This document shows positions 59,727 to 64,000 of a DNA stretch of 64,000 bases, piece after piece. Positions within the stretch are counted from its first letter, which is position 1; every line of letters starts with the position of its first letter. The notes under the pieces were generated by a model. The model was not told where the DNA came from. It saw nothing but the letters and a program-made list of their open reading frames with translations, and did not search any database. The translations under genes were made by a program, and so were the position numbers. The stretch lies in NCBI RefSeq assembly GCF_000975155.1, contig NZ_BBRG01000001.1, positions 913,999 through 977,998 of the forward strand. The letters run 5' to 3'. The stretch is from Demequina globuliformis. GTDB lineage: Bacteria; Actinomycetota; Actinomycetes; Actinomycetales; Demequinaceae.

Positions 59727-60212
59727 CTACACGAGCGCGCCAGCCTCCCGCTGCAGCAGCGCCCGCTTGACGCCGACGCCCCACGCAAAGCCGGTCAGTG
59801 CCCCTGACGCTCCCGTCACGCGGTGGCACGGCACAAACAGCGCGACCGGGTTGGCTCCACAAGCGGCCCCCACTGCGCGGCTCGCGCCAGGAGATCCCAG
59901 CTGGGCCGCTAGTTCACCGTACGTGCGGCGCTGGCCCGATGGGATCTGGCGCAGCGCCTCCCACACTCGCGCCCGGAACGCCGTGCCTTGCGTGGCCACC
60001 GGTACCCCCAGAACCGCCGCGTGCTGGCCTGCGTAGAACCGCATGACGGCGTCGGCAGCCTGTACGGTGCCGGCGCTGCCAGGCTCGCCCACGCGCGACC
60101 TGCCCGCGAGCGCGGCCACATCCGCAGTCCAGCCAGCGGCGATGACCGCGCCGTCCTCCTCGACTACTGCGAACGGGCCGTCTGGCGTGTCGAGTACTTC
60201 ATAGGTCCGCAT
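59727..60212 (-). CDS. ogt: Methylated-DNA--protein-cysteine methyltransferase
   Basis: A 161-residue suicide enzyme removing O6-alkyl groups from guanine. The active-site motif PCHRV contains acceptor Cys129, and the helix-turn-helix includes YGELAAQLGSPGASRAVGAA. The catalytic domain is nearly the whole protein. Its start lies inside the end of the Ada-AlkA fusion gene (14-base overlap), so the two form an alkylation-repair operon. Confidence 0.94.
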   Translation of the reverse strand: MRTYEVLDTPDGPFAVVEEDGAVIAAGWTADVAALAGRSRVGEPGSAGTVQAADAVMRFYAGQHAAVLGVPVATQGTAFRARVWEALRQIPSGQRRTYGELAAQLGSPGASRAVGAACGANPVALFVPCHRVTGASGALTGFAWGVGVKRALLQREAGALV

Positions 60213-61686
60213 GGTGTCCTCCAGAGGTCGGTGACGCTGCGCGCCACAGGTGCATCATCAGGTAGCTGCGCCACGGCGCCGCTGACGCGGTGGCGGCAAC
60301 GAGGTCTCGAGGCGCGTCGGGCAGGCCCAGGGCCCTGGCCCCGGTCCGGACCGCGACGTCTCCTGTGAGCAGCACGTCGGTGGCTCCGAGCGCACGGAGG
60401 GTCACGTAGCCGGCGGTCCATGGGCCGATGCCACGGAGGCTTTCAAGGGCCGAGGCGGCATCCGCGACGGCAACCCCTGGGTCTAGGCGCACGGTGCCGT
60501 CGGCGAGCGCAGCGCACGCACCTACGAGGGCCGCCTGGCGCGCACGGGGGCCGGACAGCACGCCCGCTCCGGCATCGGCCACTGTTGCGGACGTGGGGAA
60601 GAGCCGGGTCACGCCGTCGACCGCGAGCGCCTCCGGGACACGATCCCCGACGGCGTCCACGAGGCGCTGCACGGCTATGCGGGCCGCAGCGACGGAGACC
60701 TGCTGGCCGAGGATCGCGCGCACGAGCATCTCGCCGCCGTCGACCGCGCCCGGAATGCGGATGCCCGGCACCGCCGCCACGCAGGCGCGCATGGCTGGCA
60801 GCGCCGCAAGCGCCTCATCGATCGCCACCGGGTCCGCGTCCAGGTCCATGAGCCGGCGCACGCGTGCCAGCAATTCGGGGAGGTCAGCGAGATCAGTGAG
60901 CCGCGCCGTGACGGCCACGTAGGCCCCGTCGGGGCGGAGGTCGACCGTCGCCGGCCCCCGAGCGAGCCGAAGACTCCTCGAGTAGCCGTGTGCACTCACC
61001 CGCTCCACGCCATCGATTGCACGCTGGCGCAGCCACGTCAGCACGCCGTCGCCGTCGAAAGGCTCGCGCGCCCTCAGCCGCACGGTGAGCGCGCCCGGTT
61101 CAGCCGTCCGCTCGCTGCGGCGTGCATGCGACCGCAGTTGCGTGGGGGTCGCACCGTAAATCTCCTTGCACGTGTCGTTGAATTGCCGCACAGACGCGAA
61201 CCCCGCGGCGTGCGCCACGTCGGTGGTCGGCATGAGAGTCGACACGAGCAGATGACGCGCCGTCTGGGCTCGCTGGGCCCGTGCCAGCGCGAGCGGTCCA
61301 GCGCCGAACTCGTCGACGAGGATGCGTCCCAATTGGCGAGATGAATAGCCCAGCCGCGCAGCCAACCCCGGCACACCCTCGCGGTCGACCAGGCCTGTCG
61401 AGATCAGTCTCATGGCCCTGGCCGCCACGTCCTGGCGGAGGTTCCACGCGGGACTGCCAGGCGTCGCCTCCGGCAGACACCGACGGCACGCCCGGTAGCC
61501 GGCCGCGTGCGCGGCTGCGGATGTCACAAAGAACGTGCAATTCCCCGGCTTGGGAGTCCTCGCGGGGCACGACGGGCGGCAATAGATACCCGTCGACCGC
61601 ACCGCCGTCACGAACTGCCCGTCAAACCGAGCGTCGCGCCCGCTCACCGCGGCGTAACGGGAAGCGAAGTCGGTTGGAGCGGTCAT
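60199..61686 (-). CDS. Ada-AraC-AlkA fusion: methyl-sensing regulator and 3-methyladenine glycosylase
   Basis: A 495-residue three-part protein. The Ada-type zinc domain has Cys36, Cys40, Cys67 and Cys70 (YCRPSCPARTPKPGNC and ACRRC), where Cys36 accepts methyl groups from phosphotriesters. An AraC HTH follows (about 85-185). The AlkA glycosylase begins near 200, with helix-hairpin-helix LRGIGPWTAGY (417-427) and catalytic Asp443 in TGDVAVR. It can therefore sense methylation, activate genes and excise alkylated bases. ogt follows directly. The start ATG gives the family N terminus. Confidence 0.93.
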   Translation of the reverse strand: MTAPTDFASRYAAVSGRDARFDGQFVTAVRSTGIYCRPSCPARTPKPGNCTFFVTSAAAHAAGYRACRRCLPEATPGSPAWNLRQDVAARAMRLISTGLVDREGVPGLAARLGYSSRQLGRILVDEFGAGPLALARAQRAQTARHLLVSTLMPTTDVAHAAGFASVRQFNDTCKEIYGATPTQLRSHARRSERTAEPGALTVRLRAREPFDGDGVLTWLRQRAIDGVERVSAHGYSRSLRLARGPATVDLRPDGAYVAVTARLTDLADLPELLARVRRLMDLDADPVAIDEALAALPAMRACVAAVPGIRIPGAVDGGEMLVRAILGQQVSVAAARIAVQRLVDAVGDRVPEALAVDGVTRLFPTSATVADAGAGVLSGPRARQAALVGACAALADGTVRLDPGVAVADAASALESLRGIGPWTAGYVTLRALGATDVLLTGDVAVRTGARALGLPDAPRDLVAATASAAPWRSYLMMHLWRAASPTSGGHHADL

Positions 61687-61768
61687 CACACCAATATGCC
61701 CGCCAATCGCCATGGGTGCTAGCGGTTTTCGGACACGACAGTCGCGCGCCGCAGATCCCACAGGAGCA

Positions 61769-62527
61769 CTAGACGACGGAAACGTAACTGCGCAACGTGC
61801 GCGCCCATCGGTTGTGAGGGAGCTCGGGGTGTAGGGCCGCGAGCGACGTGCAGTACTTGGAGACCTTGGACGGGCGCACCCCGTGGTTCCACAGGGCGCG
61901 GTCCACCACGCCCGCACGCGATGCGGACTTGGTCTCCACGATCAGGTGCCTCGCGAAGGCCGCCTGGCGGCCCTGTGCATCAACCCCGGTGACGCCGGCG
62001 TCCACGGTGACCCGGGCATCGGCCGTCACCACGGTGGTGCGCCGGTATTCGGTGGTGAGCACCGCGGCTAGATCTGCCACGGCGATGCCGGGAAAGCCGG
62101 ACACGAAATTCATGGCTGCGGCAGGCAGCCGATCCGTGCGTCCCACCGGGGTGTTGAGAAACTCGCGGTGTTTGACCGTGTCTCCCGTGCGGGAGCGCAG
62201 CTTGACCTCGATCGCGGCCGTGCCCGTGTCCACGTAGGAACGGGTGCGGACCTTGTATCGCGCCGGGCGGCGGTGTGCGGCGGCCCGGTAGCTGTCCCAC
62301 GTGGGGGTGTCGTAGTACGTCGACGAGTAGCGGAACGCGCGCACGCCATCGATCTCGAGGGTCCGTGGCCGTTCGGGCAGCGTCGCCACCACGTTCGCCC
62401 AGGTCGCGGGGCTGATCAGGTACTTGCGGTCCACGCGTTGCTGGAGCGCGGCGGCCGCGTTGACCTCCTCGAGGGAGATGGGCGCGAGGTCGTCCGTCCA
62501 GGACACGGCAGTAGCGGCGTCGATCAT
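61769..62527 (-). CDS. VTC-domain protein
   Basis: A 252-residue protein of the VTC (polyphosphate polymerase) tunnel fold. Conserved basic and acidic residues appear in QRVDRKYL, YYDTPTWDSYRAAAHRRPAR, YKVRTRSYVD, AIEVKLRS, IVETKSAS and SKVSKYCTSL. In yeast the VTC domain makes polyphosphate from ATP; bacterial homologs are poorly studied. The gene is coupled by ATGA to a DUF4956 membrane gene, its usual partner. Confidence 0.9.
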   Translation of the reverse strand: MIDAATAVSWTDDLAPISLEEVNAAAALQQRVDRKYLISPATWANVVATLPERPRTLEIDGVRAFRYSSTYYDTPTWDSYRAAAHRRPARYKVRTRSYVDTGTAAIEVKLRSRTGDTVKHREFLNTPVGRTDRLPAAAMNFVSGFPGIAVADLAAVLTTEYRRTTVVTADARVTVDAGVTGVDAQGRQAAFARHLIVETKSASRAGVVDRALWNHGVRPSKVSKYCTSLAALHPELPHNRWARTLRSYVSVV

Positions 62528-63132
62528 CGCGCCACCGCCGCCTGCGCCCGCTCGGCCGCCGTGCCCTCGTGGCGGGGGGCCGGCGCCTCATCACGCACGT
62601 TGTAGCGCACGTCGCACAGGGTCGTCTGCTGAACCACGTCGGTCTTGCGGATCACCACCCGGCGCACGTCCGCGTTGAGGAGGTCCTCGAGCATCCGGGT
62701 AGCCTCCGCCTCCGTGCTCACGACGCGATCGAGCATCACCTGCTGGGAGCGCGAGCGGGACAACAGGCGCGGGCTGTCGCCGACGGCGATGGCGAGCAAA
62801 AGAATCGCCATGAGGACCAGGCCCACCGCTCCGTGGATTCCGGGGAAGCCGCCCAGCAGACCAAGTGCAATCGCGGTGAAGTAGTACGCGATCTCCGAGT
62901 GATCCATCTCCGTGGACCGCAGCCGGATGATCGACAGGACTGCGAAGATCCCGAGCCCAAAGCCAAGCGAGACGTCCGCGGTCGCCATGGCGTAGGTGAC
63001 GCCCATGACGCCCACGTTGATGGCCAGGAAGGCGACGATCATCTCGCGGCGCCGGTGGCGCGGGAAGTACAAGCCAAAGACGAGCAGCGTGATCGCGATC
63101 AGGTCTGCGGCGATGAGGGCGTAGATAGACAT
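62524..63132 (-). CDS. DUF4956 membrane protein
   Basis: A 202-residue protein with about five membrane segments in its first 125 residues; RLRSTEMDHSEIAYYFTAIA is characteristic of DUF4956. A cytoplasmic C-terminal domain follows, with an ACT/ferredoxin-like pattern near 140-175. GAAGGTT precedes the ATG; longer frames would run through the regulatory boxes upstream. It probably forms a complex with the VTC-domain protein. Confidence 0.88.
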   Translation of the reverse strand: MSIYALIAADLIAITLLVFGLYFPRHRRREMIVAFLAINVGVMGVTYAMATADVSLGFGLGIFAVLSIIRLRSTEMDHSEIAYYFTAIALGLLGGFPGIHGAVGLVLMAILLLAIAVGDSPRLLSRSRSQQVMLDRVVSTEAEATRMLEDLLNADVRRVVIRKTDVVQQTTLCDVRYNVRDEAPAPRHEGTAAERAQAAVAR

Positions 63133-63197
63133 GGGTTTCAACCTTCGGTGTGGGGGCTCCAGGGTGAGCCGGCAATAACTCCATGGAATCCGGGGTG

Positions 63198-63279
63198 CCT
63201 GGGAACTCCCTGGGAACGGCGGCACAACCCCCTGGGAACCCAACCCCCGCCACAGCCCGCGGTCCCAGCGATTTCCCAG
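63198..63279. promoter_or_regulatory. Phased CCTGGGAA boxes, probable response-regulator sites
   Basis: CCTGGGAA occurs on the plus strand at 63198, 63209 and 63231, spaced 11 and 22 bp. On the minus strand CTGGGA occurs twice 11 bp apart (TCCCAG at 63263 and 63274). OmpR-family regulators bind direct repeats of 11-bp period, and one is encoded 23 bases further on. The sites lie between the divergent DUF4956 and regulator genes. Confidence 0.7.
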
Positions 63280-63301
63280 GCCAGAGTGCTTGACTGGAGT
63301 C

Positions 63302-63985
63302 ATGACCGACCGACGCATCCTCGTGGTGGACGACGAAGACAACCTGCGCACCATGCTCGTGGCCGCCCTCAAGTACGAGGGCTACGACGTGGTGCAGGCC
63401 GTCGACGGCGCCGAAGGCCTGAAGGCCGTCAAGGAGCACCGCCCTGACCTCATCGTGCTCGACGTGATGATGCCGAACATCGATGGGTTCGCCATGTGCC
63501 GGCGCCTGCGCGATGCGGGCGACCGCACACCTGTCATTTTTTTGACCGCGCGCGACAGTTCCGAGGACAAGGTCGAAGGGCTTCGCATTGGCGGCGACGA
63601 CTACCTCGACAAGCCCTTCAACCTTGACGAACTCGTGGCCCGCGTCGAGGCCGTCTCGCGCCGCTTTGAGCGCGACCCGTCCTCCGCGGACACCTATGAG
63701 GTTGCCGACCTGGTGCTCGACGACGTCTCTCACCGCGTGACGCGCGGCAGCAAGGAGATCTCGCTGTCGCCCACGGAGTACCGCCTGTTGATGTACCTGA
63801 TGCGCCACGTGGGGCGGGTGCTCTCGCGAGGCCAACTCTTGGAAAACGTGTGGGGCTACTCGCCTGACGATGACCCTGCGGTGGTCGAGACGTACATCGG
63901 GTACCTGCGCCGCAAGGTGGACGCCTCCGAACCCAAGCTCATTCACACCGTCCGCGGGGCCGGGTACACGCTGAGGGCGCCGTGA
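63302..63985 (+). CDS. OmpR-family response regulator
   Basis: A 227-residue regulator. The receiver has Asp10-Asp11, phospho-accepting Asp54 in VLDVMMPN, Thr82 and Lys104 (DYLDKPF). The C-terminal winged helix includes LSPTEYRLLMYLMRHVGRVL and a recognition helix region ETYIGYLRRKVD. GGAG lies four bases before the ATG; an ATG four codons upstream is less likely. A kinase start probably overlaps its stop codon. Confidence 0.94.
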   Translation: MTDRRILVVDDEDNLRTMLVAALKYEGYDVVQAVDGAEGLKAVKEHRPDLIVLDVMMPNIDGFAMCRRLRDAGDRTPVIFLTARDSSEDKVEGLRIGGDDYLDKPFNLDELVARVEAVSRRFERDPSSADTYEVADLVLDDVSHRVTRGSKEISLSPTEYRLLMYLMRHVGRVLSRGQLLENVWGYSPDDDPAVVETYIGYLRRKVDASEPKLIHTVRGAGYTLRAP

Positions 63986-64000
63986 CCGCACGACGCACCC
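63982..64000 (+). CDS. Probable sensor kinase, first codons only
   Basis: A GTG overlaps the TGA of the response regulator (GTGA) and opens a frame beginning V-T-A-R-R-T at the window edge. A cognate histidine kinase normally follows such a regulator. Only six codons are visible, so the product is inferred from context. Confidence 0.35.

Follow-up and report, generated by a model that had tools for sequence, protein, structure and literature searches.

Phased direct repeats between a PhoP-like response regulator and a divergent DUF4956-VTC gene pair in Demequina: a candidate switch for the CotH-VTC-DUF4956 module

Self-regulating switches of the OmpR/PhoB type that act through phased repeats are a well-known kind of system. 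Likewise, genes for CotH, polyphosphate-polymerase and DUF4956 proteins keep company in several bacterial groups. Among the described regulators, PhoP of Mycobacterium tuberculosis is the nearest to the one considered here. PhoP binds TCACAGC-N4-TCACAGC as a tandem dimer for which the 4-bp spacer is strict, and its affinity is higher for three or four phased repeats (PMC4832192). Its residues Asn212 and Ser216 touch base 3 of the half-site via a water molecule (PMC4832192). At lipF and pks2, the PhoP sites lie over the −35 region and class II activation was proposed, while the auto-site of PhoP in M. tuberculosis is located downstream of +1 (PMC3413638).

A second point of reference is provided by the PhoP/PhoB-type phosphate regulators and PolR of Microlunatus, which, like the system analysed here, rely on 11-nt direct repeats in actinobacteria; PolR also controls polyphosphate genes (PMC6754071). 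The half-site is different, namely GTTCAC-N5-GTTCAC (PMC6754071). PolR binds the ppk, ppgk, pstS and pit promoters, and the main text of that paper does not mention VTC (PMC6754071). Regarding the gene set, the Pel loci of streptococci and clostridia include CotH, polyphosphate polymerase and DUF4956 as adjoining accessory genes, and bifidobacteria possess a similar set (PMC7112168). These Gram-positive Pel loci encode the same three protein types as the Demequina module. In the Pel loci, however, the accessory genes are contiguous with pelDEADAFG (PMC7112168), whereas the CotH gene of Demequina globuliformis lies 430 kb off and is tied to the other two by promoter layout. Since the three genes are contiguous in Pel loci, a shared switch makes sense; the passages of PMC7112168 on these accessory genes name no transcriptional regulator for them. 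In the open-access literature searched, a scope outside which most subscription journals fall, no title or opening of an abstract describes a transcriptional regulator of the CotH-VTC-DUF4956 module. Within this literature, the assignment of the module to a PhoP-like switch appears to be new.

The window, i.e. the whole stretch of 64,000 nucleotides that was analysed, belongs to the D. globuliformis genome (class Actinomycetes; assembly with 8 contigs, 2.62 Mb in total). At the right end of the window, minus-strand genes for DUF4956 and VTC diverge from the plus-strand gene of an OmpR-type response regulator, and a gap of 169 bp (63133-63301) separates the DUF4956 and regulator genes (Table 1). 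These identities, which an earlier note had assigned from the letters of the sequence, agree with our profile searches. By its domains, the regulator is a member of the OmpR/PhoB family (PF00072, E 3.6e-33; PF00486, Trans_reg_C, E 1.4e-26). The histidine kinase encoded behind it carries HAMP, HisKA and HATPase_c domains according to a family scan. The ATG of the VTC gene overlaps the DUF4956 stop, so the two probably form one operon. A PDB sequence search with the VTC protein up to E 1 returned no match. Beside VTC, the minus-strand frames at 59727-61917 were labelled by eye as methylated-DNA alkyltransferase-like and Ada/AlkA-type repair protein-like.

Table 1. Genes, boxes and predicted promoter elements at the right end of the window
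Feature	Position	Strand	Description
VTC-domain gene	61769..62527	-	PF09359, E 7.5e-19; polyphosphate-polymerase family by name
DUF4956 gene	62524..63132	-	PF16316, E 6e-53
Predicted −10, DUF4956 promoter	63183..63188	-	TTCCAT, 9 nt past the box pair; promoter model
Box closest to DUF4956	63198..63205	-	CCTGGGAA on the plus strand, TTCCCAGG on the minus strand; promoter-proximal half-site of the DUF4956-facing pair
DUF4956-facing pair, second box	63209..63216	-	11 bp onward from the first box; sequence and promoter model
Third box	63231..63238	-	22 bp (two periods) beyond the second box; relatives also show 22- and 33-bp spacings
Regulator promoter, upstream box	63263..63269	+	TCCCAGC
Regulator promoter, downstream box	63274..63280	+	TCCCAGG; spacer 4 bp, period 11 bp
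Predicted −10, regulator gene	63290..63295	+	TTGACT, 6 nt upstream of the ATG
Response regulator, PhoP-like	63302..63985	+	Receiver and winged-helix DNA-binding domain
Histidine kinase gene start	63982..64000	+	GTG overlaps the regulator stop; runs past the window (L117 2981-4375)

Within the gap, two clusters of boxes are oppositely oriented, each facing its divergent gene, and they display the period of OmpR/PhoB sites, as the earlier note had claimed. Its coordinates for the plus-strand CCTGGGAA repeats (starts 63198, 63209 and 63231, i.e. 11 and 22 bp apart) and for a minus-strand CTGGGA pair (63263-63268 and 63274-63279, 11 bp apart) proved exact. An additional CCTGGGAA copy is present on the minus strand (63273-63280). 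The intermediate phase at 63220-63227 (CGGCACAA) is degenerate.

GC-rich spacer DNA such as this could contain boxes by chance or as a low-complexity trait, and CCTGGGAA is present seven times in the window; the expected number, however, is 1.58. The gap contains two CTGGGA pairs that share a strand and are spaced by exactly 11 bp; in 5000 dinucleotide-shuffled versions this count was never reached, and at least one pair appeared in a single version. As the CTGGGA motif was picked by eye, this figure is post hoc, and independent testing has to come from the relatives. Across a further 28 loci of the genus (L036-L062 plus L069, the Demequina share of an 80-locus set), CTG[GA]GA pairs are spaced by 11 bp in 25 cases, by 22 bp in 13 and by 33 bp in six. 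The remaining pairs are found at 12, 16 and 34 bp, one each, with no others between 6 and 40 bp, and shuffled Demequina loci give at most 0.1 pairs for any spacing. These 28 loci are kin and hence do not represent 28 independent trials. Poor conservation of the spacing in close relatives was the outcome that the earlier note had named as speaking against it; the spacing is kept. Considering this conservation across Demequina together with the promoter model below, we take the chance reading as refuted and its probability as negligible.

The regulator itself points to PhoP. Its best match among solved structures is M. tuberculosis PhoP (230 bits, E 2e-67), followed by PrrA (189 bits) and MtrA (176). 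In the reverse search, a PhoP segment retrieves the regulator first from its own genome with 229 bits, the next match reaching 161; judged by these pairwise matches, the regulator is the closest sequence relative of PhoP in both search directions. The NCBIfam equivalog cut-offs are missed for PhoB (229.6 vs 296.2) and for MtrA (213.4 vs 300). Four base-contacting residues are shared with PhoP: Val213, Glu215, Tyr217 and Tyr220 (contacts from PMC4832192). In contrast, Asn212 is replaced by Ala, Ser or Gly and Ser216 by Thr. In helix α8, four of the six base contacts of PhoP are kept, so not all are conserved. Because Asn212 and Ser216 are replaced, we name the regulator PhoP-like and do not equate it with PhoP in function.

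The boxes resemble PhoP sites in their 7-bp half-sites, 4-bp spacer, 11-bp period and extra phased repeats. The extra box at 63231 fits the tighter binding of PhoP to three or four repeats (PMC4832192). In Demequina, C or T mostly replaces the A that TCACAGC of PhoP has at base 3 of the half-site; several loci outside the genus have A. We considered a recognition code in which residues 212 and 216 co-vary with base 3 and found it unsupported: two loci (L077, L078) have Gly212 and Thr216 yet mostly A.

For the promoter model, a weight matrix was built solely from regulator-facing promoters, comprising 37 of the 38 in the genus aligned on the start codon; L013, whose start was not located by the start-finder, was left out. 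The consensus reads TC[C/T]CAGC-N4-box-N9-(-10)-N6-ATG without a leader, with −10 variants such as GATACT, GAGACT and TTGACT. This geometry is identical in 34 of the 37 aligned orthologous promoters and shifted by one base in the others (L008, L149 and L154). Many species have a degenerate downstream box, such as CGTGAGG or GTGGAGG. As the predicted −10 of the regulator gene is only 6 nt from the ATG, a leaderless mRNA is implied.

When the window was scanned with this matrix (127,936 positions), the regulator promoter, a member of the training set, scored best (34.9). The DUF4956-facing site, which is outside the training set, came second with 13.9 (hit 63183-63215, minus strand), and the next position reached 8.9. 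The maxima of six Markov-shuffled windows were 7.8 to 14.8. Since the score of the DUF4956-facing site is close to the best of these, the case depends on conservation and not on a single-window score. When both strands of the 28 Demequina loci were scanned, the DUF4956-facing site came top among some 12,500 positions in 26 loci, second in L062 and fourth in L061. The lowest scores of true DUF4956-facing sites, found in two of the 28 loci, were 5.7 and −0.1. The arrangement box-N4-box-N9-(-10), in which the −10 is predicted, is common to the regulator, DUF4956 and CotH promoters. It matches class II activated promoters in layout, the site lying over the −35 region at a fixed distance to the predicted −10.

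The distribution of the genes across the genus offers a complementary view. The regulator was found in 38 of 44 Demequina genomes (69-100% identity) and DUF4956 in 37 of 44, with 36 above the cut-off; their co-occurrence has a Fisher P of 0.003, a value that ignores relatedness. A DUF4956 match without a detected regulator occurs in two genomes, as a full match in G040 and as a fragment at a contig end in G035. Conversely, G011, G027 and G039 hold the regulator and lack DUF4956. In these three, the regulator-facing site is retained (matrix scores of 28.6, 39.1 and 29.5, respectively); beside the regulator, no DUF4956-type site was seen, the next hits scoring at most 5.8 at a distance of 0.7-3.4 kb. 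True DUF4956-facing sites score equally low in two of the 28 loci, so the absence from the regulator-only genomes is likely, not certain. The comparison suggests that the two clusters are likely separable and that the DUF4956-facing one accompanies DUF4956.

The persistence of the regulator-facing pair in three genomes without DUF4956, and its standing as the best conserved pair, could also mean that the boxes serve the regulator operon alone, the DUF4956-facing array being a by-product of its upstream region. Yet this array is conserved with a −10 geometry of its own and was not detected in the genomes that lack DUF4956. Unlinked CotH genes show this layout as well, and on these grounds a by-product is very unlikely. 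The comparison instead supports the proposal of the earlier note that the adjacent regulator controls itself and the VTC/DUF4956 pair (matrix, 26 of 28 loci; 3 of 3 genomes without DUF4956). Judged from these sequence data, control of both divergent genes by the adjacent PhoP-like regulator is probable.

We infer the following mechanism. The boxes would represent tandem half-sites TC[C/T]CAG[C/G], with a 4-bp spacer and an 11-bp period, for the adjacent PhoP-like regulator. Upon a putative signal, the histidine kinase would phosphorylate the regulator, which would then dimerise head-to-tail on each box pair and replace the −35 element. The bound regulator would recruit RNA polymerase to the −10 located 9 nt onward (class II activation). 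The regulator-facing pair would drive the regulator-kinase operon from the predicted transcription start, resulting in positive autoregulation and a leaderless mRNA, and the opposite array, composed of two boxes and a third at +22, would drive DUF4956-VTC. Through the common layout, the regulon would extend to the unlinked CotH gene and, in some Demequina, to a sigE-like ECF sigma gene.

If the regulator binds, activation is in our judgement highly probable. At both promoters the boxes lie over the −35 region, a position where a protein could block RNA polymerase, and a regulator acting as a repressor would do so from these boxes. In addition, the auto-site of PhoP downstream of +1 fails to match the activation layout (PMC3413638), and differs from the Demequina auto-site, which is at −35. 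Nevertheless, the boxes occupy the −35 position itself at a fixed distance to the −10, as judged by eye, and their predicted placement is that of PhoP at lipF and pks2, where class II activation was proposed (PMC3413638). Repression therefore seems unlikely, and activation is retained as the preferred mode.

The earlier note had suggested searching the genome for the box pair, and CTGRGA-N5-CTGRGA indeed occurs four times. The pattern TCYCAG-N5-TCYCAG-N15-T has four perfect matches and four with one mismatch in the 2.62-Mb genome, and a reversed control pattern gives four matches at up to one mismatch. The perfect matches precede the regulator, DUF4956(-VTC), an ECF sigma gene and, at a distance of 430 kb, the unlinked gene for CotH. 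Hence the candidate targets beyond the regulator are DUF4956-VTC, CotH and the ECF sigma gene, unlike those of PhoP. CotH (PF08757, E 2.7e-27), which weakly matches B. cereus CotH (5jd9, E 0.00025), completes the module, whose PF16316 and PF09359 members lie in the window. Its promoter has the layout box-N4-box-N9-(-10)-N6-ATG, as at the regulator.

CotH-family genes are present in 21 of 44 Demequina genomes, and DUF4956 and the regulator accompany them in all 21 (P 0.001, a value that disregards relatedness). The strict box pair is found at CotH-family promoters in 19 of the 21 genomes. It precedes nine of 11 long CotH genes, with a relaxed match in L189 and none in L196, and all ten weaker, mostly short CotH-domain genes. 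Over the 162,576 positions of the CotH loci there are 21 strict pairs, all explained by 19 promoters, two of which have three boxes in a row and thus two overlapping pairs each. The top hit of the matrix missed the CotH site in three of the 11 long-CotH loci (L187, L190 and L196); the strict pattern recovers it in L187 and L190, not in L196. In the ten loci with weaker CotH genes, the matrix placed the promoter site first in seven and second in two (L213; L216, tied); in L214 the site fell outside the top two.

Over all genomes of the genus, the box-pair pattern was counted 174 times and its reversed control 24 times. Genomes with the regulator contain on average 4.3 pairs (n=38) versus 1.5 in those without (n=6; P 0.004). 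Subtraction of one or two pairs per genome changes P to 0.03 or 0.18, respectively: the excess fades because the raw counts include the regulator's own and the DUF4956 promoters. As proof of the regulator, box counts are weaker than they first looked.

Box counts outside these two promoters are thus not clearly dependent on the adjacent regulator, which would fit another OmpR-type regulator of the genome, and not the adjacent one, as the main binder. Candidates exist: the PhoP segment matches 12 further places in the genome, five of them over almost the full length (36-43% identity), and some relatives have a 48-52% paralogue with a like box before its own gene. Moreover, G035, in which no regulator was found, retains boxes at the ECF sigma gene; its assembly, however, is only 88% complete and consists of about 170 contigs. 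The orthologues that were read have boxes at the adjacent regulator's own promoter, the next PhoP relative of the genome lies far behind (161 vs 229 bits), and CotH occurs only where the regulator is present (21 of 21 genomes). A different main binder is accordingly improbable, and the adjacent PhoP-like regulator remains our candidate.

The ECF sigma gene of D. globuliformis (L116, C8:486801-487467) is sigma-E-like and is followed by a zinc-finger (anti-sigma-like) gene. It is present in 44 genomes, of which 30 loci were examined for boxes. All 30 loci have GGGAACAT upstream of the gene, whether boxes are present or not, and PhoP-like boxes are found just upstream of GGGAACAT in 15 of the 30 (set L116, L238-L267). 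By regulator status, boxes occur in 14 of 26 loci with the regulator and in one of four without (G035). GAACAT was considered as the −10 of the ECF sigma promoter and dropped, as GGGAACAT occurs even where boxes are lacking; given the ECF consensus, GGGAACAT more probably serves as the −35 element of a promoter through which the ECF factor would drive its own gene.

Beyond Demequina, the regulator was found within the fetched flanks (~3 kb) in five of 52 DUF4956 loci (L063, L077, L078, L086 and L100; 49-62% identity), where it lies beside DUF4956, VTC or CotH. In these five, visual reading reveals TCACAG, TCTCAG or TCCCAG boxes with 11-bp spacing upstream of DUF4956, CotH or the regulator. L063 is from Ilumatobacter, class Acidimicrobiia. 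In a phylum sample of 296 genomes, 18, our own included, have a regulator this close, and 18 loci other than our own were examined. The auto-site pattern is present upstream of 8 of these 18 homologues (shuffle mean 0.015, maximum 1), in comparison with 0/18 for reversed sequence and 2/18 for the opposite strand. DUF4956 within 1.5 kb of the regulator homologue was seen in 0/18 loci and an adjacent CotH in 2/18. The idea of one regulator dedicated to one module was abandoned in its simple form, as the homologues are mostly without either neighbour. On this comparison, the auto-site is widespread in the regulator group and the tie to the module is seen in part of the group only.

Tentatively, and with marginally more doubt than belief, we propose that some Actinomycetota, from at least two classes (Actinomycetes and Acidimicrobiia), share a PhoP-like two-component system as a conserved switch of the CotH-VTC-DUF4956 module. 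In this proposal the half-site would drift between TCACAG and TCCCAG, and an ECF sigma factor of the envelope-stress type would have been added in part of Demequina. From its CotH kinase-like protein, VTC-type polymerase and DUF4956 protein, we infer that the module presumably acts in cell-surface modification. If the proposal is true, the module would be an envelope-stress or surface-remodelling output, not a phosphate store. The promoter geometry, PhoP as the nearest known regulator and the CotH and ECF sigma sites elsewhere in the genome extend the picture beyond the earlier note. A shared promoter switch would also offer a handle on the module, with one regulator and one small gene set. 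Furthermore, the PhoP-like regulator, its half-site and its regulon may form a natural series, changing jointly across actinobacteria.

Lastly, boxes were observed at several other genes. The paralogous response regulator with 48-52% identity (L159, L161 and L165) has a similar auto-site at the same distance from the ATG. Two or three phased boxes lie upstream of an HlyD-family gene in three Demequina (L172, L173 and L179); the family scan was made on the L172 protein, and L173 and L179 were assigned by likeness. The HlyD, Cthe_2159, ferric-reductase-like and FMN-binding targets were all treated in this way, with one protein per kind scanned and the others assigned by likeness. In some Demequina, the same box pair is located upstream of ferric-reductase-like and FMN-binding protein genes (L176, L181 and L182), which hints that the regulon has a redox branch. 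In G029 (L177), boxes precede a gene for a Cthe_2159-type carbohydrate-binding protein, and in G006 (L167) a Cthe_2159-like gene, recognised by likeness, stands third behind DUF4956 and VTC.
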